A stretch of 31,119 nucleotides of DNA, taken from positions 1 through 31,119 of IMG/VR virus record IMGVR_UViG_3300043410_000327; one strand, 5' to 3'. The stretch comes from a virus. Numbering within the stretch: position 1 is the stretch's first letter; every line of letters begins with the position of its first letter. Below the pieces are notes generated by a model. That model was given only the letters and a program-made list of their open reading frames with translations, searched no databases and had not been told where the DNA came from. The position numbers and the translations under genes are program-made. This document shows positions 10,174 through 24,771 of this stretch, piece after piece.

Positions 10174-10193
10174 ATATCAATTCACCTTATTAG

Positions 10194-10222
10194 ATTATAT
10201 CATTATGCAGACAAATCGCCAA
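10194..10222 (-). promoter_or_regulatory. Promoter with -35 inside the upstream fibre gene
   Basis: TTGGCG (10222-10217), 17-nt spacer, TATAAT (10199-10194) preceded by TGA. The leader contains AAGGTGA. The -35 again coincides with the Ile-Gly-Asp codons of the upstream paralogue. Confidence 0.7.
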
Positions 10223-10946: not shown

Positions 10947-10952
10947 TGTTAA

Positions 10953-10981
10953 ATTATATCATCAGAGTAGGTATCTGACAA
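10953..10981 (-). promoter_or_regulatory. Leaderless promoter
   Basis: TTGTCA (10981-10976), 17-nt spacer, TATAAT (10958-10953) with TGA extension, then 6 nt to the ATG at 10946. The -35 overlaps the VRY codons at the end of the upstream glycine-rich gene. Confidence 0.75.
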
Positions 10982-11852
10982 TAACAATTCCTGATCCACC
11001 ATTTCCTCCAGTGTCTGGTGTTCCGCCACCACCGCCACCGCCGCCAGTATTGGCATTAGCACTTGCACATGCTGCCGCTCCACCAGTTGCTGCTGCACCA
11101 TAATGTGAAGTGCTGTTGTTATTTCCTGGACCTCCCATGGCATACCAAGTATTTGATCCAGAAATAGAATATTGTTTTCCTGGTCCTGCAAAAGCATAGG
11201 ATGTACTATTGGCTCCAATGGCTCCAGAAGATCCATTTCCACCAACTCCTCCTGCTCCACCCCCTCCAGATGCTCCAGCGTAATCATTTGAGTTGGCAGT
11301 ATTATTTGCACCTATTCCACCAGCATATCCAAAACCAACATAACCAGTACCTGATGTTTGAGTTGCTGAGTACTGTGCTCCTAAGTTGCTTGCCGAACCT
11401 CCTCCTGATCCTCCAGAAGAGCCAACTCTTGCATTCCATCCACCACCATATCCTCCACCAAATGCTGTAATTGCACCAAAACTTGAATTAGATCCAGCCA
11501 CTGCGTTATACGGTCCTGGTGAAGATGCTCCCGCTCCCATTCCGCCACCACCCACAACCACTGCATAATTATTTGTACTTACAGAATAATTGTCTGCATA
11601 ACAAAGGCCACCTGCACCACCACCACCGCCTACGTCCCAACCGCCTCCGCCACCGCCTGCAACAACCAATATTTCACATTTCTTTTCTCCATATTTAACA
11701 GAAAAAATATCTGAAGTTACCGTTGTAAAAATATGAATTTTATATCCTCCAGCAAGAGTTATTGTTCCTCCGACTGCCTCAAATGAGTTTTCTATTTGTG
11801 GTCTTGACACCTGTCTTCCAGATAGAAATCTTTGAACTCCTGCACTGCTCAT
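10962..11852 (-). CDS. Glycine-rich adhesin (copy 1 of 6)
   Basis: 296 aa. After a ~75-residue N-terminal domain with GGYKIHIF and ILVVAGGGGGG, residues ~75-280 are dominated by Gly, Ser, Ala and Asn with runs such as GGGGGAGGL and GGSGGGS, and the protein ends GSGIVIVRYLL. This organisation is typical of phage glycine-rich tail-tip proteins; in Salmonella phage S16 gp38, comparable glycine runs pack as polyglycine II helices that display variable receptor-binding loops. The start overlaps the upstream stop as TAATG. It pairs with the 318-aa gene upstream, as copy 21748-22461/20903-21751 does. Confidence 0.88.
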   Translation of the reverse strand: MSSAGVQRFLSGRQVSRPQIENSFEAVGGTITLAGGYKIHIFTTVTSDIFSVKYGEKKCEILVVAGGGGGGWDVGGGGGAGGLCYADNYSVSTNNYAVVVGGGGMGAGASSPGPYNAVAGSNSSFGAITAFGGGYGGGWNARVGSSGGSGGGSASNLGAQYSATQTSGTGYVGFGYAGGIGANNTANSNDYAGASGGGGAGGVGGNGSSGAIGANSTSYAFAGPGKQYSISGSNTWYAMGGPGNNNSTSHYGAAATGGAAACASANANTGGGGGGGGTPDTGGNGGSGIVIVRYLL

Positions 11853-12808
11853 TATCCATACATCCTTGTCGCTAGAATTGATTGATAGTCATTTGGCTGA
11901 GAACTTACTGCTACCCATGCTGAACCTGACCATACAGAGATTGCGCCAGTTGATGAATTTACCCATAGCGTTCCAGTAGATGGTGAAGAGGGGGCAGATG
12001 ATTGATATGATGACCCTGGTGCTGCTGCTAATATCCAAGTAGATCCACTATATACATACATCAAGTTTGCGGCTGAATCTACCCACACTTGACCAGTTGC
12101 CGCAGATGTAGGAGCAGATGATTGATATTTAGCAGCAGATGTAATAAGTGTCCATGCTGTTCCAGACCATACACTCATTGTTGAATTATTGCTATTTGTC
12201 CATACTGTTCCAGCATCTCCTACACCCAATCCAGTTGGTTGTGTTGTTGAATAGAATACTGTTGGATATCCTGGAATTGTCGTAGGAACATCATCAAGAT
12301 CTACCCACAACTGACCTTCCTGTGGATAAGATGGCTGAGTATTCTGTGCATACCCCGCTGATCCTGGAACGGCATTTACCCACATTGTTCCATCCCAGAA
12401 CTTTACATAGCCAAGTGCCTGACTTACCCATACATCTCCAATATAGTTGGCTGTTGGAACGGAATCTGAAACAAAAACCTTGTTATAATTTCCGCTTGAC
12501 TCATGAATAGCGTTGATAGAAAAAGAAACATCTGGGGAAGATGCTCTTACATAGACAAGATCATTCTTTTCCAGTGGAACTCTGAAGGTTTCTAAGGAGT
12601 TGTTTGCTGGAAGAACAGTGTCGTATGCCACATAAGCATATTGGGCGGTCGTAGTGGCTGTGCTTGGCTGAATCCATACCCTGATAGTTGCTGGGGCAGC
12701 AGATTTATTGGTGGCAATTACAGAAATAATAGATTGACGTACCGCCGTATGGAGTAACGTATCAGTATTTGCAGAGGGAGTGCCTAAGCCAAGGCGTACA
12801 ATTGCCAT
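11852..12808 (-). CDS. Tail fibre/collar protein with WxG repeats
   Basis: 318 aa. Residues 1-108 (MAIVRLGLGTPSANTDTLL to SSPDVSFSINAIHESSG) form a beta-rich domain shared with the 237-aa protein at 21748-22461. Residues ~110-310 contain four to five repeats of about 40 residues with the pattern SAPTSxxTGxxWVDSxxxxxxxWSGSxWV, found in many phage fibre proteins as a repeated stalk unit. It starts leaderless behind TGATATAAT and is coupled to the glycine-rich adhesin downstream. It may be the stalk or adaptor for that adhesin; this is inferred from the repeated pairing. Confidence 0.85.
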   Translation of the reverse strand: MAIVRLGLGTPSANTDTLLHTAVRQSIISVIATNKSAAPATIRVWIQPSTATTTAQYAYVAYDTVLPANNSLETFRVPLEKNDLVYVRASSPDVSFSINAIHESSGNYNKVFVSDSVPTANYIGDVWVSQALGYVKFWDGTMWVNAVPGSAGYAQNTQPSYPQEGQLWVDLDDVPTTIPGYPTVFYSTTQPTGLGVGDAGTVWTNSNNSTMSVWSGTAWTLITSAAKYQSSAPTSAATGQVWVDSAANLMYVYSGSTWILAAAPGSSYQSSAPSSPSTGTLWVNSSTGAISVWSGSAWVAVSSQPNDYQSILATRMYG

Positions 12809-12814
12809 ATTAGA

Positions 12815-12823
12815 ATTATATCA
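12815..12823 (-). promoter_or_regulatory. Extended -10 promoter, leaderless start
   Basis: TGATATAAT on the minus strand, then 6 nt to the ATG at 12808. It occupies the 16-nt gap after the preceding gene. At 17 nt the -35 region reads TGGCTA, a weak match. Confidence 0.7.
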
Positions 12824-12824
12824 C

Positions 12825-13424
12825 TCAGGAGTTTTTGTAGCCATATACTCTTATTGTTCCAGTCATAGTTCCAGTATTAGCAACAATAGAAAATCCATCA
12901 AACGATGTAGTGCCCGTAAAAGCAGTTCCATACATTGATATTTCAGGAGTTGCACTAGATGGACTAAAAGAATACATACTAATTCCATTTGTAATTGCTG
13001 TTTTAAATGGAGAATAAACATCAAACCAAATAGGAACGGTAACGGCGGCTGCTCCGTCACAGAAAGTAAGACCCGTTCCGTTTAACGCTCTAGACGTAAT
13101 AACCGATGCAGTAGAATAACCAATTACACGTTGAGAATTATAAGAAGAAGATGAGTTATCTACTCCAGAAGTTCTGTACCTAAGTGTCGCCGTGGCAGCC
13201 GTGCTAAAAGATAATTCAGAAACAATTTTGTACCAATCATAAGTTACACTAAAGCAGTTATTAATAGATACTGAAGAGGCGGCAGAAAAATCAGTCTTAT
13301 TAATAAGATCCACTCCAGCACCTGTCATTGCTCCATTTACCGCTACTGCACCCGTAGAGGCGAGGGTAATGTTATTAATAGCAGAACTACCATGCTTAAC
13401 GTATGTTGTTGATAGTGTACTCAT
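12825..13424 (-). CDS. Small tail-fibre protein, RVYGYK family (copy 1 of 3)
   Basis: 199 aa. The first ~65 residues are a fibre-like linker. From about residue 70 (INNCFSVTYDWYKIVSELSF) to the end (TMTGTIRVYGYKNS) it is homologous to the proteins at 13424-13990 and 14232-14825. The shared domain has a conserved N-N-x-F-x-S/T-x-Y start, a central RxRxxGxDxSxxxY motif and a closing TGxxRVYGYK strand, suggesting a beta-sandwich tip domain. Its ATG overlaps the upstream stop (TAATG), with AAGGGG upstream. The receptor is unknown. Confidence 0.85.
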   Translation of the reverse strand: MSTLSTTYVKHGSSAINNITLASTGAVAVNGAMTGAGVDLINKTDFSAASSVSINNCFSVTYDWYKIVSELSFSTAATATLRYRTSGVDNSSSSYNSQRVIGYSTASVITSRALNGTGLTFCDGAAAVTVPIWFDVYSPFKTAITNGISMYSFSPSSATPEISMYGTAFTGTTSFDGFSIVANTGTMTGTIRVYGYKNS

Positions 13425-13990
13425 TATGACCCCTTATACCCATAAACTCTCATATTTCCAGTCATAGTTCCTGTGCTTGGATAGAAGGTTATTCCATCAA
13501 ATGTTGCTACAGAATCAAATTCATGAAAGCCCATTCCAAGTTCACATGAACCTGTTCCCCATCCATACATTTGTGTAATAACAGTTGCCTGGGGAAGCAT
13601 TGGATCAGATATGTCCATCCAAGTTATCCCTCTAGTGGTATTTATGTCACCTATTCTAAAGTTATTACCGCTAACTACTCTAGATCCAGCCAAGGTTGTG
13701 CTTCCAGCAGTTATTCTTTGCTGATGATAATTTGTACTGGTATCATCTGTACCATTTGATCTTAATCTTACATAAGAAACAGCGGCGGCAGATGCAACAA
13801 CATCTACGACAATTCTATAAGCCTGATATGTTGAAGTAAAAACATTGTTTAGTGATACTGATGATACTGCTGATAAAGTTGTTGAGTTTATTAAAACTAG
13901 TGCTGGAGAAAGAGAATCTACTGGTACAGATAAACCATTAATTGTGTTTGCACCAGATACTGCTCCTGTGCCTGCTAATGTTATTGGCAT
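13424..13990 (-). CDS. Small tail-fibre protein, RVYGYK family (copy 2 of 3)
   Basis: 188 aa. It has an N-terminal GTGAVSGANTINGLSVP linker, then the shared domain from about residue 47 (LNNVFTSTYQAYRIVVDV) to TMTGNMRVYGYKGS. It retains all the motifs of its neighbours: RLRSNGTDDTSTNY in the middle and the closing RVYGYK. The adjacent arrangement of copies 1 and 2 suggests tandem duplication followed by divergence. The start is in a TAATG overlap after the 75-aa gene, with GGGGG as a possible ribosome-binding site. Confidence 0.85.
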   Translation of the reverse strand: MPITLAGTGAVSGANTINGLSVPVDSLSPALVLINSTTLSAVSSVSLNNVFTSTYQAYRIVVDVVASAAAVSYVRLRSNGTDDTSTNYHQQRITAGSTTLAGSRVVSGNNFRIGDINTTRGITWMDISDPMLPQATVITQMYGWGTGSCELGMGFHEFDSVATFDGITFYPSTGTMTGNMRVYGYKGS

Positions 13991-14217
13991 TATGCCCCCA
14001 AAATTGCAGCGACTTCTTCTTCTGTAAGTCCAAGTGCTGCCAACTTATCTAGCGCACTAGCCTTAGCAGCAGTCTTTGCTTCTTCCTCTGCAACACGAGC
14101 AGCCTCTGCTTCTGCAAAAGCGGCTGCATCAATTTCTCTTTGTGCCAATTCTTCTGGAGTAAAGTCTCTTTCGATAACTTCCCCAGTTTCTACGTTTATT
14201 TCTACTACGTCAGCCAT
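13990..14217 (-). CDS. Small acidic alanine-rich helical protein
   Basis: 75 aa. The sequence is almost wholly helical in character: an acidic N-terminus (VEINVETGEVIERDF), a long Ala/Glu stretch (residues ~30-55, likely coiled coil) and a C-terminal LAALGLTEEEVAAIL that looks like a UBA-type helix. Comparable small proteins are often seen in phage tail-fibre clusters; an assembly or chaperone role is possible but unproven. It is the first gene of its unit, starting 6 nt after GGTATAAT with no ribosome-binding site. Confidence 0.8.
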   Translation of the reverse strand: MADVVEINVETGEVIERDFTPEELAQREIDAAAFAEAEAARVAEEEAKTAAKASALDKLAALGLTEEEVAAILGA

Positions 14218-14223
14218 ATCAAT

Positions 14224-14251
14224 ATTATACCTTATGTGTTCCTATAGGCAA
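14224..14251 (-). promoter_or_regulatory. Leaderless promoter
   Basis: TTGCCT (14251-14246), 16-nt spacer, TATAAT (14229-14224), then 6 nt to the ATG at 14217. The -35 lies in the terminal codons (FAY) of the preceding fibre gene. Confidence 0.65.
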
Positions 14252-14825
14252 ACACTCTTACTGTTCCAGAAATTGTTCCAGAACTTGGATAAAGAGTAAA
14301 TCCATCACACGCCGATGAAATGCTGGTTGCTCCCGCATAGGAAATGCTCACAATTCCAGCGGTAGTGTTGTAGGTAGAACTTGACTTGAAAGACTTGATT
14401 GCTGCCTCAGAAGGATTAGTAAGCATGATTTCAAATACGTCTTTTTGAGCCAGAAGACCAACCTCATAAGAAGTATCAGAGTTGACACGACCCGCAGATA
14501 CGGTTGCTCCTGTTCCTTGCCAATACTGCCAAAAATAAGATGCAGTTGAATTGTCTACTCCACCAGATCGGTATCTAAATTTAATTCCAGCGCCAGTTGT
14601 TGCTGAGTGAGTTCCTTGAGTAATAATTAAATAAGTATTATATGAACTAGTAAAAACATTGTTAAGTGAAACAGATGCTGCTGAAGAAAATGATTGATTT
14701 GCTATAAGCATCATTCCTGGTTGAATGCTATCTGTAGGAAGAGTAAGAACTGTATTTGATCCAGTAGTAGGAGCAGCCAATTCTACATATCCAGTAGTTC
14801 CATATAATCTTATATTTCCTGGCAT
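14232..14825 (-). CDS. Small tail-fibre protein, RVYGYK family (copy 3 of 3)
   Basis: 197 aa. It begins MPGNIRLYGTTGYVELAAP, a common phage fibre lead-in. The shared domain runs from about residue 50 (LNNVFTSSYNTYLIITQG) through RYRSGGVDNSTASY to TISGTVRVFAYRNT, so the last strand is altered (RVFAYR) relative to copies 1 and 2. An in-frame start 15 nt further up (14840) is possible, but the ATG at 14825 forms a TAATG overlap with the upstream 79-aa gene, the local rule, and is preferred. It is probably a receptor-binding tip. Confidence 0.85.
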   Translation of the reverse strand: MPGNIRLYGTTGYVELAAPTTGSNTVLTLPTDSIQPGMMLIANQSFSSAASVSLNNVFTSSYNTYLIITQGTHSATTGAGIKFRYRSGGVDNSTASYFWQYWQGTGATVSAGRVNSDTSYEVGLLAQKDVFEIMLTNPSEAAIKSFKSSSTYNTTAGIVSISYAGATSISSACDGFTLYPSSGTISGTVRVFAYRNT

Positions 14826-15064
14826 TAGACTACCGTCCAAACTGATCCATTAGGAATTGTTACCGTAACACCATCTGCAATAGTGATTGGTCCAGCAGTT
14901 ATGGCATTCTTATTGGTCGTGATTGTATAACTATAAGTGACTGTTTGATCGGTTTCAAAGAAGATCTGATTTGTGCCGCCGCCCTTGGCATATGGCATAT
15001 TTGAGATACTAGTGGCAACATCTTGCCATTGAGTTCCATCCCAAACTTTGCTTTTGTATGCCAT
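14825..15064 (-). CDS. Short fibre-tip protein (NQIFFETDQTVTYSYTI type)
   Basis: 79 aa. The sequence has a W-module at the N-terminus (KVWDGTQWQDV) followed by a short beta domain: NQIFFETDQTVTYSYTI, then AGPITIADGVTVTIPNGS and a terminal WTVV. This C-terminal pattern is very common as the last domain of large fibres in marine and freshwater phages; here it stands as an independent gene. It starts leaderless, 6 nt after TGATATAAT, and overlaps the next gene by TAATG. It may form a trimeric beta-structure cap. Confidence 0.82.
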   Translation of the reverse strand: MAYKSKVWDGTQWQDVATSISNMPYAKGGGTNQIFFETDQTVTYSYTITTNKNAITAGPITIADGVTVTIPNGSVWTVV

Positions 15065-15070
15065 AATTAA

Positions 15071-15079
15071 ATTATATCA
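15071..15079 (-). promoter_or_regulatory. Extended -10 promoter, leaderless start
   Basis: TGATATAAT, 6 nt before the ATG at 15064. At 17 nt spacing the -35 region reads ATGTCA, a fair match to TTGACA. Confidence 0.7.
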
Positions 15080-15421
15080 CTAGGAAATTCTATTGACATA
15101 ACCGCTGATGCTAATAACATTTGTCGTTGCCGCAAATGCTCTTACTACGTTTGCTCCAGTAAGTATCAGTCCAGGAATAAGAAGTGTTAATCCAGATTCT
15201 CCAGCGATAGTTAATTCTATATTCTCTGTATTGGTTGTTCCGCCAAATTCTATAGTAAGTTTAACTGACGATGTTCCAGTATTTACTGCATATAGCCAAA
15301 TTTCATCCAATGCTGTTGAACTAGCGGTATGAATAGTTGTTCCTGGAGTCGCTGTAGCGGCAACTGCAATTGGCTTTCCGCTAGTTGATCCTGATAAAAG
15401 TTGCTTTGAATATGTAGCCAT
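15080..15421 (-). CDS. Small beta-rich virion protein (paralogue of 20223-20570)
   Basis: 113 aa. It is beta-rich throughout, beginning MATYSKQLLSGSTSGKPI and ending VISISGYVNRIS. It aligns along its whole length with the 115-aa protein at 20223-20570, sharing the GTTIHTA segment, DE(I/V)WLYA, SSVKLTIE(F/Y)GGT and the closing GYVNR. A single jelly-roll-like domain is likely; a fibre tip or decoration role is inferred from context. It is a one-gene unit between two promoters, starting 6 nt after TATAAT without a ribosome-binding site. Confidence 0.82.
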   Translation of the reverse strand: MATYSKQLLSGSTSGKPIAVAATATPGTTIHTASSTALDEIWLYAVNTGTSSVKLTIEFGGTTNTENIELTIAGESGLTLLIPGLILTGANVVRAFAATTNVISISGYVNRIS

Positions 15422-15427
15422 TTGTCA

Positions 15428-15433
15428 ATTATA
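15428..15433 (-). promoter_or_regulatory. -10 promoter, leaderless start
   Basis: TATAAT on the minus strand, directly after the TAG stop codon of the glycine-rich gene, with 6 nt to the ATG at 15421. No clear -35. Confidence 0.6.
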
Positions 15434-16312
15434 CTATAAAATCTCTACAACAATAAGTCCACCAGTGACAGAGTTTCCATATGTTCCTCTATCTGAGTCT
15501 GTGCTATTTGCGGCAGTAGTTCTACTTCCTTGAGTTGTTGTTCCACTACTACAGAATGTTGTGCTGTAGTATCCAGATCCACCGCCTCCAGCAGATACCT
15601 GTCCAGGTGTCTCTCCACCCCCGCCACCTCCGTAGTAGCCACCTCCGCCACCAGCACCCCAGTCACCCGCTCCATCACCTCCATAAAGTTGTCCACCAGA
15701 TCCACCACCCTGGTTTGATCCTGCACCTCCAGAAGTCTGTCCTCCTCCATATCCAGGAGTAGAGCCTGCTCCATCCTGTCCTGTAGATCCACCACCTGCG
15801 CCGCCCTCTTGACCGTGACCTCCACCTCCACCGCCTCCAGCAATTGCTATCGCATTTGCAAAAGAAAGTGTTCCATTAAATATTCCAGAATATCCACCAG
15901 CAGAACCTGCTCTATATCCTCTTCCTCCACCATTAACTCCTCCTGCGGCTGTTGCTCCTCCAGCATCTGCCACATATGTTCCAGCACCACCTACAGCACA
16001 TAAAATTTGCATACCTGCTGTTACTGGAACAATTACTTCAGTGTATCCTCCAGCAGCACCTGAAGATGACGAAGATCCTCCACCTCCAGCACCCCACAAC
16101 TTTACTTTAATACTGAAAGACCCATTCATGGTGATAATATTGCTTGATGCAGATGCATTTGTTATATATAATTTTCCATTTTCTGCTGTCCATGTTGTAG
16201 TACCACTAACTGCTGAAGATAAGGTTAAAACTGGTTTTACTTTTGGCGCTCTTACATAATTTTTACTCCAGTCTGTGACTAGAGTTGATGGCATCATTCT
16301 GCTAATATCCAT
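15434..16312 (-). CDS. Glycine-rich adhesin (copy 2 of 6)
   Basis: 292 aa. The N-terminal ~75 residues include NYVRAPKVKPVLTLSS and FSIKVKLWGAGGGG, where a WGAGGGG entry motif replaces the VAGGGG of the other copies. Residues ~75-270 are built of glycine runs (GGGGGGGHGQEGG, GGGGGYYGGGGGG) separated by short variable loops. It ends SVTGGLIVVEIL. This type of protein is thought to fold into a polyglycine-helix core with receptor-binding loops at the tail tip. Its start overlaps the 82-aa upstream gene by TAATG, so the two are probably co-translated. Confidence 0.87.
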   Translation of the reverse strand: MDISRMMPSTLVTDWSKNYVRAPKVKPVLTLSSAVSGTTTWTAENGKLYITNASASSNIITMNGSFSIKVKLWGAGGGGSSSSSGAAGGYTEVIVPVTAGMQILCAVGGAGTYVADAGGATAAGGVNGGGRGYRAGSAGGYSGIFNGTLSFANAIAIAGGGGGGGHGQEGGAGGGSTGQDGAGSTPGYGGGQTSGGAGSNQGGGSGGQLYGGDGAGDWGAGGGGGYYGGGGGGETPGQVSAGGGGSGYYSTTFCSSGTTTQGSRTTAANSTDSDRGTYGNSVTGGLIVVEIL

Positions 16313-16560
16313 TATCTAAACACCTGCAAAGCGATAACGATTTGATCAGACTCTCCGTTTACCAAGGCTAATTCTGCTTTTGTAGCAAGTGTTGATGGGT
16401 CTGTTGTTGCAATATATGTAGAAGTATCAACCCAAACATCTCCAGTTTGTGGGGAAGTAGGTGCTGTTGCCTGAACTTTTACTGGAGTAGTATTAGGCTG
16501 AGATCCAATTGGAACCCACTGTGTACCGTCATAAATATATCCTGGTCTTGATGTAGGCAT
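16312..16560 (-). CDS. Small fibre-linked protein with W-module
   Basis: 82 aa. It carries RPGYIYDGTQWVPIG at the N-terminus and ATAPTSPQTGDVWVDTST in the middle, the same repeat type as in the 318-aa and 113-aa fibre proteins. The C-terminal third is helical and less repetitive (STLATKAELALVNGESDQI). It starts leaderless 6 nt after TGCTATAAT and runs by TAATG into a glycine-rich adhesin, so it may be the adaptor for that adhesin. Function is inferred from sequence type and position only. Confidence 0.78.
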   Translation of the reverse strand: MPTSRPGYIYDGTQWVPIGSQPNTTPVKVQATAPTSPQTGDVWVDTSTYIATTDPSTLATKAELALVNGESDQIVIALQVFR

Positions 16561-16566
16561 ATATGA

Positions 16567-16575
16567 ATTATAGCA
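16567..16575 (-). promoter_or_regulatory. Extended -10 promoter, leaderless start
   Basis: TGCTATAAT, 6 nt before the ATG at 16560, in the 17-nt gap after the 275-aa gene. No good -35 is visible. Confidence 0.65.
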
Positions 16576-16577
16576 TT

Positions 16578-17405
16578 TTAATCAAATATATATGTTGCTG
16601 AATTTAAATATCTAATAATGACTATTCCAGATCCACCAGAACCAGCAGTGTTAGCGTTCCAAGATGCATTACCGCCGTTTCCAGTATTTGCAGTAGCATT
16701 AGATCCAGTAGTTCCCGTTCCAGTTGCATATGCTCCGCCAGCAGCATAAGTTACTGATGACCCACTTAATGAATTTGACAATCCAGATCCAGTTGATCCC
16801 GTTCCTCCAGCAGATCCTGCTCCTCCACCTCCGCCAGATGATCCGTTCTGAGCATTTTGTCCATTTCCACCATTATTTCCTTGACCAGCAGTTCCCGTTC
16901 CTCCAGAGGAGTATCCCAATCCGCCAGCACCCCCTCCGCCAGACCCACCTGGCCCACCGACTCTTGATTGCATTCCTCCACCCCCACCACCAGATGCCGT
17001 AAATGATGAAAAGGTACTATTATTTCCAGAAGCAGCGGTATTTTGAGCATTAGCCACAAATGTTCCTCCAGAACCAACGGATACGCTGTATGAGGTGTTT
17101 ATAGAAAGTGATAGACCGCTTCCAGTTAAAAGTCCACCAGCGCCGCCGCCGCCGCCATTTGTGTTTAGATCATTGATAAATCCCTGATTACCTGAACCTC
17201 CACCAGCAACAATTAAATAATCAACCGCTATAGATGCTGTTGGAACAAAAGTATATGTTCCACTTGTAAAAGTATGAATATTATATCCACCAGCACTAGT
17301 AATAGAACCACCTGTTGCAGAAGGAATTCCTAGTGACCTTCCGCTAGAAAGACCATAATTTTTAATTTGTGAACCTAGGGCGGTCTTAAATCTACGAACG
17401 CCCAT
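16578..17405 (-). CDS. Glycine-rich adhesin (copy 3 of 6)
   Basis: 275 aa. It begins MGVRRFKTALGSQIKNYG, has GGYNIHTFTSGTYTFVP and VDYLIVAGGG by residue 70, then ~180 residues of glycine-rich sequence (GGGGGAGGLL, GGGGGGMQSRVGGPGG) with Asn/Ser/Thr loops, and ends SGIVIIRYLNSATYIFD. The tail beyond IVIIRY is longer than in the other copies. It lies 2 nt after the 100-aa gene and closes an eight-gene unit that starts at 20570. The role is probably receptor binding. Confidence 0.87.
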   Translation of the reverse strand: MGVRRFKTALGSQIKNYGLSSGRSLGIPSATGGSITSAGGYNIHTFTSGTYTFVPTASIAVDYLIVAGGGSGNQGFINDLNTNGGGGGAGGLLTGSGLSLSINTSYSVSVGSGGTFVANAQNTAASGNNSTFSSFTASGGGGGGMQSRVGGPGGSGGGGAGGLGYSSGGTGTAGQGNNGGNGQNAQNGSSGGGGGAGSAGGTGSTGSGLSNSLSGSSVTYAAGGAYATGTGTTGSNATANTGNGGNASWNANTAGSGGSGIVIIRYLNSATYIFD

Positions 17406-17407
17406 GA

Positions 17408-17710
17408 TTAGGTAATCTCTATTCCCGAAATGTGGAAGGCTACAGTGGTAGCAGAAGCAAATCCCTTAATTGTCTTAGTGGTAGCAAGAGTCTGCTTAAT
17501 CTCAAGAATTGCAGAGTCATTTGCTGGAACAACGGTAGTTGTCGCTAAGGGAACATCATCTAGAAGAAGAGTGTATGTAGCATTAGTTCCAGCAGAGTTA
17601 ACTACAACAATTGTATTGACTATCGCTGTTGTAGAAGATGGGACGGTATATAGAGTTGTAGAAGAAGTTGCTGCTGCACCTCTATAAAGTGCCTTTGCTG
17701 CTGTTGCCAT
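17408..17710 (-). CDS. Small beta-rich virion protein
   Basis: 100 aa. Beginning MATAAKALYRGAAATSSTTLY, it has alternating hydrophobic strands (TAIVNTIVVVNSAG, TYTLLLDDVPL) and ends TTVAFHISGIEIT. The fold type resembles the 113/115-aa family and the C-terminal half of the 186/188-aa family, though identity is low by eye. An earlier in-frame ATG at 17734 lies inside the upstream gene; the ATG at 17710 forms the usual TAATG overlap with GGGAG upstream and is preferred. A fibre or decoration role is inferred from its neighbours. Confidence 0.78.
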   Translation of the reverse strand: MATAAKALYRGAAATSSTTLYTVPSSTTAIVNTIVVVNSAGTNATYTLLLDDVPLATTTVVPANDSAILEIKQTLATTKTIKGFASATTVAFHISGIEIT

Positions 17711-18051
17711 TACATTACTCCCATTGTTGCCCATAATAGAGCGTAGTCTGAATCTAGTATAGCATCAGCCTTTAATTTATAATCATTCTCATTCAAAGTA
17801 CCCGTTGTTGCATCACTGTCAACCCAAATATCTCCTGTTTGTGGAGATGATGGCGCAGAAGTTGTATAACTTGCTCCTCCACCTACCGCCCTCCACGTTG
17901 ATCCATCCCAATACTGAACCAACTTTGTGTCTTCAAGATATGTAATTTGCGAAGGCATTGGTGATGGAAGAGAAGTTGATCTTGCTGCTGCACTAGCAAA
18001 GACTAATACGTCATCTGCAATTGCATCTGGGTTTCTTGCATACCCTGGCAT
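17710..18051 (-). CDS. Small fibre protein with W-module and SAPxSPQTG repeat
   Basis: 113 aa. It carries TKLVQYWDGSTWRAVGG followed by TSAPSSPQTGDIWVDSD, the same stalk repeat seen in the 318-aa, 237-aa and 82-aa proteins, then a short helical C-terminus (DYKLKADAILDSDYALLWA). Similar small proteins begin or link adhesin genes here, so it may connect the adhesin to the tail. It is joined on both sides by TAATG overlaps. Confidence 0.8.
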   Translation of the reverse strand: MPGYARNPDAIADDVLVFASAAARSTSLPSPMPSQITYLEDTKLVQYWDGSTWRAVGGGASYTTSAPSSPQTGDIWVDSDATTGTLNENDYKLKADAILDSDYALLWATMGVM

Positions 18052-18323
18052 TAGTCTTCTTCTCTTTCAGAAACTATTGGATAAATAACAACTACATCGT
18101 CACTGTTTTCAGACCATGTGCAACCTACAATTTCAGCAATTGCTCCGTCTGGATCTGATGCCACCGCAGTAGAAAAATAAGAGTCAAATAGTTCTTGATC
18201 AAACTTCCCAGTTTCTGCATCTATAAAAAGACCATCGCTTAATTCTACTGATGCAATAATTTGATTCTTTTTTACAGAAAAAGAAGAGTTATCGGCATTA
18301 GCAATTGCAATATACTGGGTCAT
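18051..18323 (-). CDS. Small acidic protein coupled to a glycine-rich adhesin
   Basis: 90 aa, unrecognised, acidic, with no repeats and no glycine enrichment, unlike all surrounding genes. Its ATGA overlap with the 323-aa glycine-rich gene implies it is made in step with that protein. Features: SSFSVKKNQIIASVELSDG, then GKFDQELFDSYFSTAVASD, then GCTWSENSDDVVVIYPI. It occupies the same position as the 87-aa gene after the paralogous adhesin at 23169-24176. A dedicated folding or assembly chaperone is a reasonable hypothesis; a capping subunit is the alternative. Confidence 0.72.
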   Translation of the reverse strand: MTQYIAIANADNSSFSVKKNQIIASVELSDGLFIDAETGKFDQELFDSYFSTAVASDPDGAIAEIVGCTWSENSDDVVVIYPIVSEREED

Positions 18324-19291
18324 CCTATTGCATACCTCACGATTACTAGACCAACTGTTCCATTGCCACCATATCTGTCCTGTCCTGATGTGCCAACACT
18401 TCCTCCTCCGCCGCCACAGCCATATCCAGTTGCATTAGATCCGTTTGCATATCCAACAGAACCAGCACCACCACCACCTGTTCCAGCGACACCACCTGTT
18501 CCACTGCTATATGAACCACCTCCGCCACCTGCGGCGTAGCCTCTTGAAGTTCCATCAAATCTTAAAGTAATTCCATCTCCACCTTTTCCACCTAATCTAG
18601 TTGCATCATTAGCATTAATAGGAGTACCCTGTCCACCTACCTGACTATATCCTCCACCACCACCTCCTGGTCCCGAAGAACTATATGATCTTGTACCACC
18701 ACTATTTCCTTGACCAGTTGTTCCAGTTGCAATTGTTGTTGACGCTTGATTTCCTGCGCCACATCCACCTCCTGAACCTCCAGATGATGGTGCAGATGTT
18801 GACCATCCAGCGCCGCCGCCACCACCGCCTACTGCTGTAAGAGATCCAAAAGTGCTATTTCCACCACTTGTTCCTGTGCTTGTATTATTTCCACCACCTA
18901 GGTTTCCTACGGTAATGTTGTATGATGTAGCAGTAACTCCATAGTTATAGTTTAGAATTAAACCTCCAGCACCTCCACCACCACCTGATTGTCCATCTGC
19001 TGCATTTCCTCCTGGAAAGTATGCTCCTCCTCCACCTCCTCCGCCAGCGCAAACTAGAAGATCTACTACTCCTGCCTTGCTAAAGGTAATGCTGTAGTTT
19101 TGTCCAGATACATATTCAAACATATGGCAACGATATGTCACACCAAGTGTTGTTCCAGCGGTTCCATCACCAATAAAGGTGTATGGCTGTAGATATGCTG
19201 ACCATGTAGTTGCATATGCTGCTGGTCCAATATCAGAACGACCTACTGGTGTCTGATTTGCGTAAGGTGATCTAAGTCTATCAATAGCCAT
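18320..19291 (-). CDS. Glycine-rich adhesin (copy 4 of 6, duplicated cassette)
   Basis: 323 aa. The N-terminal ~85 residues (RLRSPYANQTPVGRSDIGP, RCHMFEYVSGQNYSITFS, VVDLLVCAGG) are clearly homologous to the 335-aa protein at 23169-24176. The rest is glycine-rich (GGGGGGGAYFPGG, GGGGGYSQVGGQG) and the two proteins diverge most there. It ends GLVIVRYAIG like its paralogue. The start is in a TAATG overlap with the 188-aa gene. It is expected to bind a host surface receptor at the tail tip. Confidence 0.9.
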   Translation of the reverse strand: MAIDRLRSPYANQTPVGRSDIGPAAYATTWSAYLQPYTFIGDGTAGTTLGVTYRCHMFEYVSGQNYSITFSKAGVVDLLVCAGGGGGGGAYFPGGNAADGQSGGGGGAGGLILNYNYGVTATSYNITVGNLGGGNNTSTGTSGGNSTFGSLTAVGGGGGGAGWSTSAPSSGGSGGGCGAGNQASTTIATGTTGQGNSGGTRSYSSSGPGGGGGGYSQVGGQGTPINANDATRLGGKGGDGITLRFDGTSRGYAAGGGGGSYSSGTGGVAGTGGGGAGSVGYANGSNATGYGCGGGGGSVGTSGQDRYGGNGTVGLVIVRYAIG

Positions 19292-19857
19292 TATGCTGTT
19301 ATCTCCATTCCATGTGCCTGAAAGGTGAATCCTGCGGTACTGGCAGAAACCTTAAGGTATTTATTTGTTGAATCTAGTGTAAGACCTAAAGTTAATCCAA
19401 TTGTTTCACTTGCTGCTGCTAAGTCATTGTAAACTACATAGTCTGATGTAGCCACTGTTCCAGAGGCTGTAGAAATTGCTACTTGATAATATCCACCAGT
19501 GGTATTTCTATTTGTAACAATAAGTGATGAAATTACCGCCGCTGTTGCATCTGGACAGGTATAGATTGTGTACCATGTGTATCCAGTTGCTGTTCCAGTT
19601 GCCCCTACAGAAACAACGTTAGTGTTAATAGAGTCAAAAGTAAAAGTTGTAGATGTTGGAGTTCCAGTAACTACACGAACACCATCAAATGCTGCATCTG
19701 ATGTTGTCATAAGAATGTTTACTGATTGACCTACTACCAGTCCATGTGCCGCTGAAGTTGTCAGTGTAGCAACGTTTGATGTAAGAGCCTTATTGGTAAT
19801 TGATAAAGATGTTTGTGCTGTAGAAGTCTTTCCTAGAAGTTTATACGTTGTTGGCAT
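19291..19857 (-). CDS. Tail protein, TYKLLGKT family (copy 2 of 2)
   Basis: 188 aa. It starts MPTTYKLLGKTSTAQTSLS and is collinear with the 186-aa protein at 24178-24738. Shared segments include ITNKALTSNVAT, AAFDGVRVV, TSTTFTF and the closing HGMEITA/FGMEVT. Two beta-domains are likely: an Ig-like N-terminal half and a C-terminal half resembling the 100-aa protein. An upstream in-frame start at 19875 is possible, but the ATG at 19857 is 1 nt after the upstream stop, with GGGGGG upstream. In both copies a glycine-rich adhesin follows, suggesting the pair works together. Confidence 0.85.
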   Translation of the reverse strand: MPTTYKLLGKTSTAQTSLSITNKALTSNVATLTTSAAHGLVVGQSVNILMTTSDAAFDGVRVVTGTPTSTTFTFDSINTNVVSVGATGTATGYTWYTIYTCPDATAAVISSLIVTNRNTTGGYYQVAISTASGTVATSDYVVYNDLAAASETIGLTLGLTLDSTNKYLKVSASTAGFTFQAHGMEITA

Positions 19858-19858
19858 C

Positions 19859-20221
19859 TCACATACCCCCCACAATAAGAGGATTGATGTCTATTGCTCC
19901 AACAGGAACCCAGGCGACTGAATTATAAATATAAACAGTTCTGTTGCTTTGTAGATAAACCATTCTTCCTTCTGTTGGAGAAGGAATTGCAGCATCTCTA
20001 GCAGCAGCATTTGCATATACTGTTACTGGAAGTTGTGGCTGAATTGCATCTTGATTAGAAATTGTCCAAGCACTTCCATTCCAAAACTCAATCTTTGAAG
20101 TAGATGAAATATATGTTTGCTGACCAAGATATGCGTATGAAATTGCAGCATTTCTTTCTGCTGAAGTTGCATAAACTGGCATTGTTGCAGTGCTGGCGCT
20201 AGGAGACAATAGTCCTGGCAT
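19859..20221 (-). CDS. Small fibre protein with two W-modules
   Basis: 120 aa. It contains two related ~45-residue units: ATSAERNAAISYAYLGQQTYI...IEFWNGSAW, and ANAAARDAAIPSPTEGRMVYL...YIYNSVAWVPVG. The pattern (helix with A-x-R-D/N-A-A-I, then a strand and an aromatic W-module) is common in phage fibre and head-fibre proteins. It starts 1 nt after the preceding stop codon. The role is probably an adaptor or short fibre. Confidence 0.82.
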   Translation of the reverse strand: MPGLLSPSASTATMPVYATSAERNAAISYAYLGQQTYISSTSKIEFWNGSAWTISNQDAIQPQLPVTVYANAAARDAAIPSPTEGRMVYLQSNRTVYIYNSVAWVPVGAIDINPLIVGGM

Positions 20222-20222
20222 G

Positions 20223-20570
20223 TTAAACCACCCTATTCACATAGCCATGAATGGTAATTACGTTTGTTGTACCCGCAAACGCTGTCACGACCAGAGCATT
20301 GTTCAAGAAAAGTCCTGGAACAACAAGAACAAGACCTGATTCACCTGGAATAGTGATTTCAAGGTTGTCCTGTGCAGAAGTTCCTCCATACTCAATTGTT
20401 AGTTTTACAGATGATGTAGAGTTATTATGAGCATAAAGCCATACCTCATCAAATGAACTTGTTCCAGATACCGCCGTGTGAATCGTGGTTCCAGTTGTGG
20501 CGGTAGCAGCAACTAGGATACCCTTACCATTAGTTGATCCAGATAGCGGGATCTTAGAAAATGTAGCCAT
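20223..20570 (-). CDS. Small beta-rich virion protein (paralogue of 15080-15421)
   Basis: 115 aa. It starts MATFSKIPLSGSTNGKGIL and matches the 113-aa protein along its full length, with GTTIHTA, DEVWLYAHN, SSVKLTIEYGGT and the closing GYVNRVV. It opens the longest unit of the block (eight genes to 16578). The ATG is 6 nt after TGATATAAT, and there is no ribosome-binding site. A jelly-roll-like tip or decoration protein is likely. Confidence 0.83.
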   Translation of the reverse strand: MATFSKIPLSGSTNGKGILVAATATTGTTIHTAVSGTSSFDEVWLYAHNNSTSSVKLTIEYGGTSAQDNLEITIPGESGLVLVVPGLFLNNALVVTAFAGTTNVITIHGYVNRVV

Positions 20571-20576
20571 ATAGAA

Positions 20577-20585
20577 ATTATATCA
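20577..20585 (-). promoter_or_regulatory. Extended -10 promoter containing the upstream stop codon
   Basis: TGATATAAT, 6 nt before the ATG at 20570. The TAA stop of the 110-aa gene (20580-20578) is inside the TATAAT hexamer, and the ATGATA codons before it form the rest of the box. Confidence 0.75.
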
Positions 20586-20910
20586 TTTTCTTTGGATAGT
20601 GGATGCCTAATTCATCGCAGCGTTTTCCAGCATAGTCATCGCTGCCTTTTCCATAGTATGTTGAGTCAATTTGTCTATTTTTAATAATCATATAAAATTC
20701 AGCATATGGAAGCCATGCAGCATATAGTCCACTTGGACCAGACATTTCTGAAATAACTTCCCATAAATCAATGTCTTCTATTTGAAGTTCACGAGAATAG
20801 TCCCATGCATCTGAATCTGGTAATTGTAGGAATGGTGTGTCCATCCAATTTTCATCAAAGTACTCCTCAGTACCCTTGAGGATCATTTCTGTAGTCTTAA
20901 ATCTAGGCAT
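20578..20910 (-). CDS. Small acidic protein coupled to a glycine-rich adhesin
   Basis: 110 aa, unrecognised. It is rich in Asp, Glu, Tyr and Trp (EYFDENWMDTPFLQLPDSD, YAAWLPYAEFYMIIKN) and has no glycine repeats. It overlaps the glycine-rich gene upstream by 8 nt, so translation is coupled. As with the 87-aa and 90-aa genes, a chaperone or partner specific for the adhesin just upstream is plausible; it shows no sequence similarity to those two by eye. Its last codons build the promoter of the next unit. Confidence 0.75.
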   Translation of the reverse strand: MPRFKTTEMILKGTEEYFDENWMDTPFLQLPDSDAWDYSRELQIEDIDLWEVISEMSGPSGLYAAWLPYAEFYMIIKNRQIDSTYYGKGSDDYAGKRCDELGIHYPKKMI

Positions 20911-21751
20911 AGATGTATCTTATCACTACTATACCAGTTCCACCAGCATTTCCTCCACTTGAGGCTCCGCCACCACCACCAAGGTAATTTGTTCCTGCTG
21001 TTCCTGCTGTTCCTCCTGCACCAGTTCCACCGTTTCCACCACCGCCAGTTCCACCAACGGAATTAGTTCCAGTGTAAGAAGATCCACCTCCGCCTCCTGC
21101 GTAATATGTAGGTGATCCAGATATTGATATGCTCAAACCAATGCCTCCAGCACCTCCTGTATTTGTTCCACCATTTCCTCCAACTGCTCCTGCGCCACCA
21201 CCGCCACCGCCACCGTCATTATAATCTCTGTACCACCCATATCCACCTCTATTACCCTGTCCACTTGTTCCTGCTCCAGAAGAGGTGTTGCTACTTCCTG
21301 CACCGCCACCTCCGTCTGCTCCGCCGCCAGATCCTCCAGCGCCACCTGCTCCTCTACCCTGATATGCTCCATAGCCTCCACCAATTGCTGTTCCGATTGA
21401 TGTTACTGATGAGTTAGATCCATTATTATTAACACTTCCTCCAGATCCAACAACTACAGAATAGTATGAAGCAACAATTGATGCATTACCATAAAGTAGA
21501 CCTCCTGCGCCACCACCGCCGCCACCAGATGCTGTTCCACTTCCTCCACCTCCTGCAACAATTAAATATTCAACTGATCCATAAGAGTTTGCTGGTGCAA
21601 AAGTTGACTGAAAAGTTCCTCCAGCCTGAAAGGTATGAATCTTATACCCACCTAAGATTTGTGTTGTTCCACCAGCAGCCTCAATAAACTGCTTTAAACT
21701 ATCTGAAGTATCAGAAATTCTTTTACTAACAAAATAACGTTGAATACTCAT
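20903..21751 (-). CDS. Glycine-rich adhesin (copy 5 of 6)
   Basis: 282 aa. The N-terminal ~75 residues include QRYFVSKRISDTSDSLKQF and GGYKIHTFQAGGTF, then VEYLIVAGGGGSG. The glycine-rich part has blocks such as GGGGGGAGGLLYG and GGADGGGGAG, and the protein ends TGIVVIRYIYA. The N-terminal order (Q-R-F/Y-x-S, then GGYKIH) is closest to copy 1 at 10962-11852. Its ATGA overlap follows the 237-aa gene, matching the pairing of copy 1 with the 318-aa gene. Confidence 0.88.
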   Translation of the reverse strand: MSIQRYFVSKRISDTSDSLKQFIEAAGGTTQILGGYKIHTFQAGGTFQSTFAPANSYGSVEYLIVAGGGGSGTASGGGGGGAGGLLYGNASIVASYYSVVVGSGGSVNNNGSNSSVTSIGTAIGGGYGAYQGRGAGGAGGSGGGADGGGGAGSSNTSSGAGTSGQGNRGGYGWYRDYNDGGGGGGGAGAVGGNGGTNTGGAGGIGLSISISGSPTYYAGGGGGSSYTGTNSVGGTGGGGNGGTGAGGTAGTAGTNYLGGGGGASSGGNAGGTGIVVIRYIYA

Positions 21752-22461
21752 GCCATAAACATCCTTTGTGCAATAATTAGATTTCTGTCATCTACCGCAG
21801 AAGCAAGGGAAACCCAAGCAGATCCGTTATAAACCTTAAGTTGTGGGGCTGCTGCTGAATTATCAATCCATAGATCGCTAGCAGATGGAGATGTTGGAGC
21901 AGAATTTTGAAGTGGAATTTCTTTCTCATACCCTGGAATTATTACTGTTCCAGTAAATGTGTAGTTTGCTGCTGTATTTATACCGCCAACAAGAGGAATC
22001 CAGTCTGATGCTGCCGAACTGTACACATATGCTGGCTTTGCTGATGTTCCACTAACTCCATCTGAATCAATCCAAATCATTCCATCTACTGGAACACTAG
22101 GAGCAGAGGTGGCATAAGAACTAATTCCTACCCCCAAATTAATATCATACTGAACCAATCCATAAGCCTGAAAAGAAAGATCTGCTGTATTAGATCTAAT
22201 CTTCACAACATCATTTTGATTAACTGCAAACCTGAATGTTTCAAATGAGTTAGTCTGATCTACAGGAAGATCATAGGCAATATATGCATACTGTGATGAA
22301 GAAGATGATCCAGAGGGTTGAACCCATACCCTGATGTTTGCTGATGTAGTTGATGACTTGTTGGCAGCAATAACAGACATTAGATATTGGTTATCTGCGG
22401 TAAAAAGAGTAGTATCTGTATTTGCAGAAGGATTAGAGATTGCAAGCCTACGAAGTCCCAT
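21748..22461 (-). CDS. Tail fibre protein, paralogue of the 318-aa gene
   Basis: 237 aa. Residues 1-110 (GLRRLAISNPSANTDTTLF to LSFQAYGLVQYD) align with residues 1-108 of the 318-aa protein at 11852-12808, including NPSANTDT, IRVWVQPS, SSQYAYIAYD and SFETFRF. The remainder holds SAPSVPVDGMIWIDSDG and NSAPTSPSASDLWIDNS stalk units, only two compared with four to five in its paralogue. The start lies 5 nt after a TATAAT that includes the upstream stop codon, and GGGAG also precedes it, so both leadered and leaderless translation are possible. Confidence 0.85.
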   Translation of the reverse strand: MGLRRLAISNPSANTDTTLFTADNQYLMSVIAANKSSTTSANIRVWVQPSGSSSSSQYAYIAYDLPVDQTNSFETFRFAVNQNDVVKIRSNTADLSFQAYGLVQYDINLGVGISSYATSAPSVPVDGMIWIDSDGVSGTSAKPAYVYSSAASDWIPLVGGINTAANYTFTGTVIIPGYEKEIPLQNSAPTSPSASDLWIDNSAAAPQLKVYNGSAWVSLASAVDDRNLIIAQRMFMA

Positions 22462-22466
22462 ACTAA

Positions 22467-22472
22467 ATTATA
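22467..22472 (-). promoter_or_regulatory. -10-like box containing the upstream stop codon
   Basis: TATAAT with the TAA stop of the 139-aa gene inside it, 5 nt before the ATG at 22461. There is no TG extension and no clear -35, so this is less certain than the other boxes. Confidence 0.4.
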
Positions 22473-22887
22473 CTCCCATCCACCAAGAATTTGAGAGTGC
22501 CACATCAGTTGCTACGTTTACTGCTTCTACTGGATACCAGTATGTCATTGTTCCATCTGTCTTTAGAAATTGTCCGTCATGCCCCGCTGGATCTGGAATT
22601 TCAGAAATTGCAACGGTAACCTGCTGCCAGTATGTTCCATCCCATAGATAGAAAGATCCTGTGGTGTTATCGAACCATCCTTGACCTACGGTTGGTGATG
22701 AAGGCGGAGTATCTGAAATGGTGATAGAAGTTCCACCAGATCCACCACCTAGAGCAGTCCAGGTTGTTCCATTATGGTACTTAAAGGTGTTTGTGCTGGT
22801 ATTAAAATAAATTTCACCAGATACTCCACTTGCTGGGTCTGATGCTAAATTGACAATCTTCTGGGTAGAAAGAAGTCTCTTTGTCAT
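22468..22887 (-). CDS. Small tail-fibre protein with GEIYFNTS module
   Basis: 139 aa. It begins MTKRLLSTQKIVNLASDPA and has GEIYFNTSTNTFKYHNGTTW, a common phage-fibre head module also seen near the start of the 545-aa fibre (GRIYYNTASDILKMYDGTSW). A second unit, PPSSPTVGQGWFDNTTGSF, follows, then PDPAGHDGQFLKTDG before the C-terminus. It starts 6 nt after TGATATAAT with no ribosome-binding site. It is probably a short fibre or adaptor. Confidence 0.82.
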   Translation of the reverse strand: MTKRLLSTQKIVNLASDPASGVSGEIYFNTSTNTFKYHNGTTWTALGGGSGGTSITISDTPPSSPTVGQGWFDNTTGSFYLWDGTYWQQVTVAISEIPDPAGHDGQFLKTDGTMTYWYPVEAVNVATDVALSNSWWMGV

Positions 22888-22893
22888 ATAACG

Positions 22894-22902
22894 ATTATAT
22901 CA
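22894..22902 (-). promoter_or_regulatory. Extended -10 promoter, leaderless start
   Basis: TGATATAAT directly after the stop codon of the 87-aa gene, 6 nt before the ATG at 22887. The -35 region is weak. Confidence 0.7.
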
Positions 22903-23166
22903 TTAGGGTAGTTTTGCGTTCTTTAATTGTGGCAAGTTCTGTCCACTTTCAAGAGTTACCCACTCGTGTTCAATAGCACAAAGAACTGGATTGTTAGCAA
23001 TTTGACTATTCCAGGCAAATGGCTCAATATCATACTGTGCCATATAAACGCCGAATGCTAGTGCGTCACCTTGCTCAATTTCATAGTCTGGATAATCTTT
23101 AGATGCTACTGCAACCTTATGAGTTACAAAGTTTTCAATTACTGGCTCTATAATATTTTCAGACAT
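22903..23166 (-). CDS. Small acidic protein coupled to a glycine-rich adhesin
   Basis: 87 aa, unrecognised. It is acidic and glycine-poor, with a helical start (MSENIIEPVIENFVTHKVA) and an aromatic middle (DALAFGVYMAQYDIEPFAW). It starts 2 nt after the stop of the 335-aa adhesin. Its place matches the 90-aa gene behind the paralogous adhesin, but the two small proteins do not visibly align. This fits a fast-evolving, adhesin-specific chaperone or partner, though this is a hypothesis. Confidence 0.73.
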   Translation of the reverse strand: MSENIIEPVIENFVTHKVAVASKDYPDYEIEQGDALAFGVYMAQYDIEPFAWNSQIANNPVLCAIEHEWVTLESGQNLPQLKNAKLP

Positions 23167-23168
23167 AA

Positions 23169-24176
23169 TTATCCAATCGCATATCTGACGATTATTAATC
23201 CTGCTGAACCGTTTCCTCCACTGGAGCCATAGTAGTCTCCTGCTGAGTTGGCTCCTCCGCCGCCGCTTCCGTATGATGTTGCATTACTACCATTCGTAGC
23301 ACTTCCTCCAGTAGCACCGTTTCCTCCTACGCTAGATCCTCCAGATCCTGCGGTATAGTTATTTCTTCCTCCACCGCCTCCACCTCCACCAGCGACAGTG
23401 CGAGAAGTTCCATCAAAGTTAAGTGTTATTCCTGCTCCACCATTTCCACCCTTGAGAACACTTTGATAATAATATGGGTATCCTTCTTCAGAATATCCTC
23501 CACCTCCTGAACCTGGAGCATCCCAAGAAGAACTTGGGTAGCATCCACCCGCAAATCCTTGACCAGCGGTTCCGCTGGCTTTAGTTGGTGAAAATGATTG
23601 ACCATTATCCCATCTAGACCAACCAGATCCGCAGCCTCCACCAGAACCTCCTGTGGATGGGTTGCTTCCCCAGTTTGATCCTCCTCCGCCGCCTATTGCA
23701 GTTAAAGATCCAAATACTGAATTTGAACCACTTGATCCAGTTGCTGCCTGACCTCCACCACTACCATAATTTCCTACGGTTATAGAATATTGTTGAGCGT
23801 TTACTCCATAATTATATTGAAGAATAAGTCCACCTGCTCCACCACCACCGCCAGCACAACTTCTCTGCTGATTTGAACCACCATAGTTGACTGTGTAAGC
23901 ACCACCGCCACCGCCTCCACCAGCGAGAATAAGTAGATCTACAACTCCTGCTCTTGAGAAAGTAATATTATAGTTTTGTCCAGGAACGTACTCAAACATA
24001 TGACATCTGTATGACATTCCCAATATAGTGTTTGTACTTGCTGTTGCGCTGCTTCCAACAAATGTATATGGAGCAAGTGATGAAGTCCATGTACTTGCAT
24101 AAGCAGATGGACCATATCCAGTCTTTCCTACAGGAATCTGATTTGCATATGGAGATCTTAGTCTTTCAAAACCCAT
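23169..24176 (-). CDS. Glycine-rich adhesin (copy 6 of 6, duplicated cassette)
   Basis: 335 aa, the longest of the set. Residues 1-95 (MGFERLRSPYANQIPVG, YRCHMFEYVPGQNYNITFS, VVDLLILAGGGGG) closely match the 323-aa protein at 18320-19291. The glycine-rich part (GGGGGGGAYTVNYGG, GGGGGGGGRNN) is longer and its loops carry Trp, Tyr and Pro (WSRWDNGQSF, YPYYYQS), good candidates for receptor-contact residues. It ends GLIIVRYAIG. The start is 1 nt behind the preceding stop, with a strong GGAGG. Confidence 0.9.
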   Translation of the reverse strand: MGFERLRSPYANQIPVGKTGYGPSAYASTWTSSLAPYTFVGSSATASTNTILGMSYRCHMFEYVPGQNYNITFSRAGVVDLLILAGGGGGGGAYTVNYGGSNQQRSCAGGGGGAGGLILQYNYGVNAQQYSITVGNYGSGGGQAATGSSGSNSVFGSLTAIGGGGGSNWGSNPSTGGSGGGCGSGWSRWDNGQSFSPTKASGTAGQGFAGGCYPSSSWDAPGSGGGGYSEEGYPYYYQSVLKGGNGGAGITLNFDGTSRTVAGGGGGGGGRNNYTAGSGGSSVGGNGATGGSATNGSNATSYGSGGGGANSAGDYYGSSGGNGSAGLIIVRYAIG

Positions 24177-24177
24177 T

Positions 24178-24738: not shown

Positions 24739-24759
24739 TTCATATCCTCAACATAAAAA

Positions 24760-24768
24760 AGTATAGCA
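24760..24768 (-). promoter_or_regulatory. Extended -10 promoter with leader
   Basis: TGCTATACT, about 21 nt before the ATG at 24738. With an 18-nt spacer, TTGTTT is a weak -35. The leader carries GAGG. Confidence 0.5.
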
Positions 24769-24771
24769 TAA

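Follow-up and report, generated by a model that had tools for sequence, protein, structure and literature searches.

In T-even phages and haloviruses, host range is determined by glycine-lattice adhesins, which are mostly unannotated in environmental phages. Six such proteins are predicted in IMG/VR virus record IMGVR_UViG_3300043410_000327, a 31.1 kb fragment from an uncultured phage (the whole 31,119 nucleotides are referred to as the window). They are probably host-recognition fibre tips, five of them arranged in duplicated adaptor-tip units in which the tips diverge faster than the frame. Among described proteins, the tail fibre protein gp24 of cyanophage Pam3 (7yfw, 7ypx) is built on a TNF-like beta-sandwich whose loops reach out into a glycine lattice. 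In the Pam3 fibre the glycine stem is conserved and the distal tip hypervariable, and the fibre has an N-terminal alpha-helical trimerisation shaft, a Tfa-like chaperone and one fibre protein only (PMC9608196). In the family of Halorubrum phage HF2 a glycine-rich gene and a small downstream gene are the main host-range determinant (PMC8651126). In Salmonella phage S16 the fibre tip is formed by gp38, whose glycine core bears variable loops at its distal end. It has a Trp-bearing helical attachment domain, a beta-helix base and ten glycine motifs, and sits as a monomer on the gp37 trimer (PMC6851490). The actinophage polyglycine-rich domain ("brush") proteins (Bxb1, Mysterious gp31/gp32) are also glycine-rich tail-tip proteins, with one or two per genome.

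All six open reading frames (ORFs) named by the sequence-only reading of the window were present:

10962..11852, minus strand: tip G1, 296 amino acids; PF21722 (Gly_rich_2), 66.9 bits, E 3.4e-18
15434..16312, minus strand: tip G2, 292 amino acids; PF12810 (ALK_LTK_GRD), 55 bits, E 1.5e-14
16578..17405, minus strand: tip G3, 275 amino acids; PF21722, 75.7 bits
18320..19291, minus strand: tip G4, 323 amino acids; PF21722; nearest paralogue G6
20903..21751, minus strand: tip G5, 282 amino acids; PF21722; structure modelled
23169..24176, minus strand: tip G6, 335 amino acids; PF21722, 60.3 bits

The proteins ranged in size from 275 to 335 amino acids with a glycine content of 28-35%. PF21722 scores of G1, G3, G4, G5 and G6 were 56-76 bits, the curated Pfam cut-offs being 24.3 bits for PF21722 and 24.5 bits for PF12810. 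No PF21722 match was reported for G2 in the Pfam search, PF12810 being the only family found. Alignment showed the shared AGGGG-type entry strand in all six proteins (ILVVAGGGG, VKLWGAGGGG, YLIVAGGGS, LLVCAGGGG, YLIVAGGGG and LLILAGGGG), as had been read from the sequence. A glycine region followed in each, although its span in the alignment was about 195-240 residues and not the 180-230 first given. The ending IVIxRY, claimed for five of the six, holds as a loose motif. It was literal in two (10962 and 16578) and conservative in three (LVIVRY, IVVIRY and LIIVRY), and G2 ended in GGLIVVEIL with nothing similar. G4 and G6 were 62% identical, or 49% when Gly-Gly columns were left out. Their genes differed at 105, 84 and 175 codon positions 1, 2 and 3, respectively, and the excess at third positions fits translated genes under constraint.

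One beta-rich domain of 100 residues was found in all five genes immediately before the Gly_rich_2 genes (hhalign 99.5-100% among them). These genes are putative adaptors of a family uncharacterised so far, and with the tips they form five paralogous pairs. The paired architecture was missed by the earlier reading; the number of glycine-rich domains is in itself not exceptional. The adaptor genes and the cluster that holds them are as follows:

11852..12808, minus strand: adaptor of G1, 318 amino acids; N-terminal beta-rich domain and short YxGSxW-type linker repeats; phrog_11338 tail fiber protein
17408..17734, minus strand: adaptor of G3, 108 amino acids; hhalign 99.7-100% to other adaptors
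19291..19875, minus strand: adaptor of G4, 194 amino acids; 68% identical to 24178
21748..22461, minus strand: adaptor of G5, 237 amino acids; matches other adaptors in hhalign; 67-69% identical in G048 and G004
24178..24738, minus strand: adaptor of G6, 186 amino acids; hhalign 99.5-100% to other adaptors
7974..27786, minus strand: tail-fibre/adhesin cluster, 33 tightly packed genes with two further paralogue trios and tail-fibre matches

By arithmetic, chance alone would produce the observed pairing about once in 98,000 if each adaptor could lie anywhere among the cluster's 28 other genes. In the fetched viral loci a Gly gene stood directly after 18 of 27 distinct adaptors, and of the 96 Gly genes with room upstream, 72 were preceded by another Gly gene or by a gene for an adaptor or a phrog_30535 protein. 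A whole unit was found to be duplicated, 19291+18320 and 24178+23169 having adaptors 68% and tips 62% identical and DNA repeats of 300 and 135 nt. The sequence-only reading took six paralogues as suggesting either a wide range of receptors or a branched tail tip; such gene pairs would fit separate fibres or branches. G2 appears to be a separate addition to the set because it lacks both an adaptor and the Gly_rich_2 signature. No relatives of G2 were found in the viral or genome contigs searched or among the fetched loci. Tips 10962, 16578, 18320, 20903 and 23169 and adaptors 21748 and 11852 begin alike at the N-terminus, with M(x)[ILVF]xR[FLY]. Adaptor 21748 ends in IIAQRMF and its tip begins MSIQRYF. 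The shared pattern is a possible docking motif.

The gene order at 21748-20903-20578-20223, adaptor and tip followed by a small protein and a phrog_30535 protein, was seen again in relatives. The genes accompanying adaptor and tip there, and the second copy of the phrog_30535 family, are:

20578..20910, minus strand: small protein directly downstream of G5, 110 amino acids
20223..20570, minus strand: phrog_30535 family, copy 1 (family of 113-115 amino acids)
15080..15421, minus strand: phrog_30535 family, copy 2, 68% identical to copy 1

At this shared locus the comparison of the tip, the small protein and the phrog_30535 protein covered five phages, and that of the adaptor covered three (the window and its relatives G048 and G004). 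The adaptors were 62-69% identical, the small proteins 69-92% and the phrog_30535 proteins 61-83%. Identity of the tips was 44-56%, or 23-40% without Gly-Gly columns. The portal and reductase of the window and G004 were 87 and 91% identical, respectively. As tip identity is far below that of the flanks, the portal and the reductase, the recognition part changes much faster than the frame. The shared-locus tips of different phages were hardly closer than the paralogues within one phage (28-40% vs 24-36%, without Gly-Gly columns). This pattern fits exchangeable receptor-binding tips on a conserved frame. A small protein of the 20578 type directly followed the Gly gene in seven of 11 viral loci and is a possible dedicated chaperone of the tip. 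The phrog_30535 protein was found in approximately 550 viral stretches, and in 36 of 71 distinct cases from other viruses the very next gene was a Gly gene. It was ruled out as a member of the adaptor family (hhalign 1-3%).

The structure prediction proposed by the sequence-only reading was run for G5 (20903) using AlphaFold2 with 34 related sequences. The model had a predicted local distance difference test score (pLDDT) of 85 and a predicted template modelling score (pTM) of 0.88, with low confidence at a short N-terminal stretch. Strands at residues 20-65, 85-100 and 274-280 form a beta-sandwich base. The glycine region between them was mostly of high confidence with almost no regular strand or helix. 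The glycine-lattice interpretation is based on DSSP, pLDDT and the fold match, and the model supports well a beta-sandwich base with extended, ordered glycine loops. The proposal of a rigid glycine core with variable segments was supported by this order and by the sequence entropy of the region, where the glycines were conserved (mean 1.0 bit) and the residues between them were not (2.3 bits). Foldseek was run against 350,542 PDB chains. The best matches of G5 were the Pam3 fibre 7yfw (prob 0.97), the LTK TG domain, the tail tip of mycobacteriophage Bxb1 and ALK. These are exactly the solved TNF-like and glycine-lattice proteins, which shows the class of fold. Against predicted viral structures (BFVD) there were 174 matches at E<=1e-3; cyanophages, a pelagiphage and Halorubrum phage HF2 (Q8V6M2) were among them. 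A sequence-based PDB search gave Pam3 at E 0.09, insufficient on its own, and with G2 as query no match was found. The G2 model was weaker (pLDDT 68), with the LTK TG domain and ALK as its best Foldseek matches (prob 1.00). Together with the PF12810 match this likeness to vertebrate receptor kinases is a resemblance of fold only and no shared function is claimed.

Pam3 gp24 was the best PDB match of G5, and its C-terminal strand GIIIVQYF resembles GIVIIRYL of the window. The window tips differ from it in their short unstructured start, in the separate adaptor gene that precedes five of them and in being six proteins. No helix of four or more residues was present in the G5 or G2 models, so neither has an N-terminal helical trimerisation shaft. 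S16 gp38 had been named as a comparable adhesin. It was ruled out as a direct template by Pfam (no GP38 match in the window proteins) and by fold, the G5 model having a beta-sandwich and not a beta-helix, no helices, and 6F45 outside its 50 best matches. S16 had no PF21722 match.

The HF2 protein HrrHF2_520 (Q8V6M2) matched PF21722 at E 5.9e-30 as well as the G5 model. As at the shared locus of the window, a small gene lies directly downstream and the glycine-rich adhesin is hypervariable (Hafunavirus). The window thus shares with the Hafunavirus-type adhesin a hypervariable locus that holds a glycine-rich tip and, after it, a small gene. Unlike the window, HF2 has one copy per genome and an archaeal host. 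The adaptor and 20578 profiles did not match the two HF2 genes tested.

The cultured Synechococcus phage Bellamy carries 11 glycine-rich domains in six genes (33, 38, 41, 44, 51 and 54), arrayed in one stretch of about 20 kb and all annotated as hypothetical. Genes 33, 38, 41 and 44 each follow a gene of 120-135 amino acids. These small genes matched the adaptors at hhalign 51%, which is suggestive of kinship. Homologues of 20578 were not found after the Bellamy Gly genes in the genes tested. Bellamy differs from the window phage in being a T4-like cyanophage and in having several Gly genes with two or more domains. It is the cultured phage in which the number of heads per particle is directly answerable.

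A tblastn search of one Gly protein against named phages gave no match, glycine being masked by the low-complexity filter, and copies were therefore counted by searching whole records with PF21722 and with profiles. Counts in other fragments are lower bounds. Six Gly genes were found in the window, six in G048 and three in the G004 fragment. Eleven domains were found in G002 and another 11 within 30 kb in G051. HF2 has one domain and Bxb1 one or two. Some contigs of 6-9 kb carried tandem triplets of Gly genes. In most viruses whose portal is related, the sequenced part had no Gly domain. Six copies had been considered unusual on the grounds that most phages have one or two. That expectation is a poor guide to this lineage, as other viruses, both near and far, hold 3-11 such domains. 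No paper on multi-copy Gly arrays, nor any naming PF21722, was found in the literature searched, and these arrays seem to be a recurring pattern that is little described. Repeated adaptor-tip pairs with a slow frame and a fast tip offer a simple rule by which recognition heads can be located in phages from metagenomes, and name a new adaptor family for testing.

Two further observations were made on these arrays. In G051 (L207, a 30.3 kb record) the adhesin units take up more than one third of the fragment. Among 100 distinct Gly-rich ORFs of related viruses, approximately 20 have the look of circular permutation, some being called by motif alone, with the entry strand (profile positions 28-55, GGYxIHTFTSSGTF) C-terminal, after positions 57-290. 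Examples are L004:10017-10934, L111:4637-5593 and L152:10373-11209, with 17 others.

The portal of the window was 95% identical to portals on other uncultured contigs and approximately 42% identical to those of Streptomyces phages. Tomas, the sole one of these inspected, belongs to the Stanwilliamsviridae. Tomas and the window have thymidylate synthase (ThyX), ribonucleotide reductase and portal genes in comparable order, and an actinobacterial host is plausible. A nearest-DNA search with 24 kb of the window gave no match among named phages. The full layout was visible in G048 (101.7 kb, portal 79% identical to that of the window). It comprises the adhesin cluster, ribonucleotide reductase, a 1200-residue orphan, the portal, further head genes, a 3,096-residue protein in the tape-measure position and then tail genes. 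Corresponding genes in G004 matched head protease, head-tail adaptor, tape measure and tail families. The two layouts therefore make the adhesin cluster a second locus, which lies upstream of the portal and is separate from the genes that come after the tape measure.

In the explanation preferred here each protein would be a distal fibre tip with a small TNF-like beta-sandwich base and loops extended into an ordered glycine lattice. The variable segments on the lattice would be the likely receptor-contact surface. Five tips are the second gene of a two-gene unit, the first encoding a beta-rich adaptor that would dock the tip on the particle, a fibre or a baseplate arm, with the short N-terminal stretch of the tip as docking peptide. 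The small protein after some tips may help folding, as Pam3 gp25 does. The units were multiplied by duplication, 19291+18320 and 24178+23169 being the latest pair. Tips diverge or are exchanged far faster than their neighbours, and the lineage would keep several recognition heads and renew them. Presence in the virion, receptor binding, docking of the tip by the adaptor and the chaperone role of 20578 are what we infer. That one siphovirus-like virion displays five or six different adaptor-presented heads, swapped between phages as cassettes, is offered tentatively, the odds being somewhat against it.

Several observations weigh against the preferred explanation. The Foldseek TM-scores to solved structures were low, at 0.22-0.33 (0.33 for the Pam3-type match), and therefore show the class of fold and not its details; no PDB match of the G5 model passed E 1e-3. 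The cluster is far from the tape measure and tail-hub genes and precedes the ribonucleotide reductase and portal. Within it 25315 matched phrog_2647 (head decoration) and 10203 matched phrog_18179 (head and packaging). This position and these matches would suit fibres attached to the capsid, or decoration proteins, with sugars or surfaces as their binding targets, but more of the cluster neighbours matched tail-fibre, minor-tail and baseplate families than head families, and the solved relatives from Pam3 and Bxb1 are tail proteins. In addition, a protein with Mtd_N and BppL_N domains lies directly before a Gly gene in the corresponding cluster of G004. The Mtd N-terminal and BppL N-terminal domains are domains of known receptor-binding proteins. 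A capsid location is accordingly judged improbable. Unrelated glycine-rich low-complexity proteins would give inflated identities from their glycine alone, but this was refuted by composition-preserving shuffles (one per protein, n = 6), which gave zero Pfam matches at E<=10. The non-glycine base strands also align and the adaptor-tip pairing is independent evidence, leaving a compositional artefact next to no likelihood.

The number of tips in use is a separate matter. The cluster could be a store of cassettes, one or two of the six being used per particle or host and the rest spare or recent and kept for recombination-driven renewal. The low similarity of shared-locus tips between phages favours this, as does the difference in cluster copy number and order between near relatives. 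It has to contend with six intact frames, with five tips that each keep an adaptor, and with the searched genes of the window, which gave no recognisable promoter switch, invertase or reverse transcriptase (the window is a fragment and no search was aimed at reverse transcriptase, which next to a template repeat would mark a diversity-generating retroelement). A store of this kind is rather doubtful. Six non-equivalent subunits of a single branched tail-tip complex, only some of them receptor-binding, would account for an operon-like cluster with six different tips and their separate adaptors, and for G2 being of a different subfamily with no adaptor. Copy number and content vary from at least three to six among close relatives, a poor fit to a fixed six-part machine, and the branched complex is considered unlikely. 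Host-recognition tips on duplicated adaptor units are retained as the probable explanation.

Two other groups of paralogues lie beside the Gly tips. Genes 8458, 9313 and 10203 (window 8458-10946) encode a common C-terminal domain of 100 residues with 41-45% identity, and genes 12825, 13424 and 14232 (window 12825-14840) are 30-37% identical. With these trios at least three kinds of tip have therefore been multiplied in the cluster. ThyX and an apparent HNH-type gene were located on the plus strand at window 27954-29085, between membrane-protein genes and the adhesin cluster, and the same was seen in G048. The 1227-residue protein encoded between the reductase and the portal (window 2182-5865) had no Pfam or PHROG match and was 37-90% conserved in relatives. 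Tryptophan halogenase and 2OG-Fe(II) oxygenase genes occur in or beside such clusters of several unrelated viruses (L109:5485-8299, L210:3178-4749, L209:4789-5439 and Bellamy gene 46) and are absent from the window. These enzymes possibly modify the fibres or the host surface.

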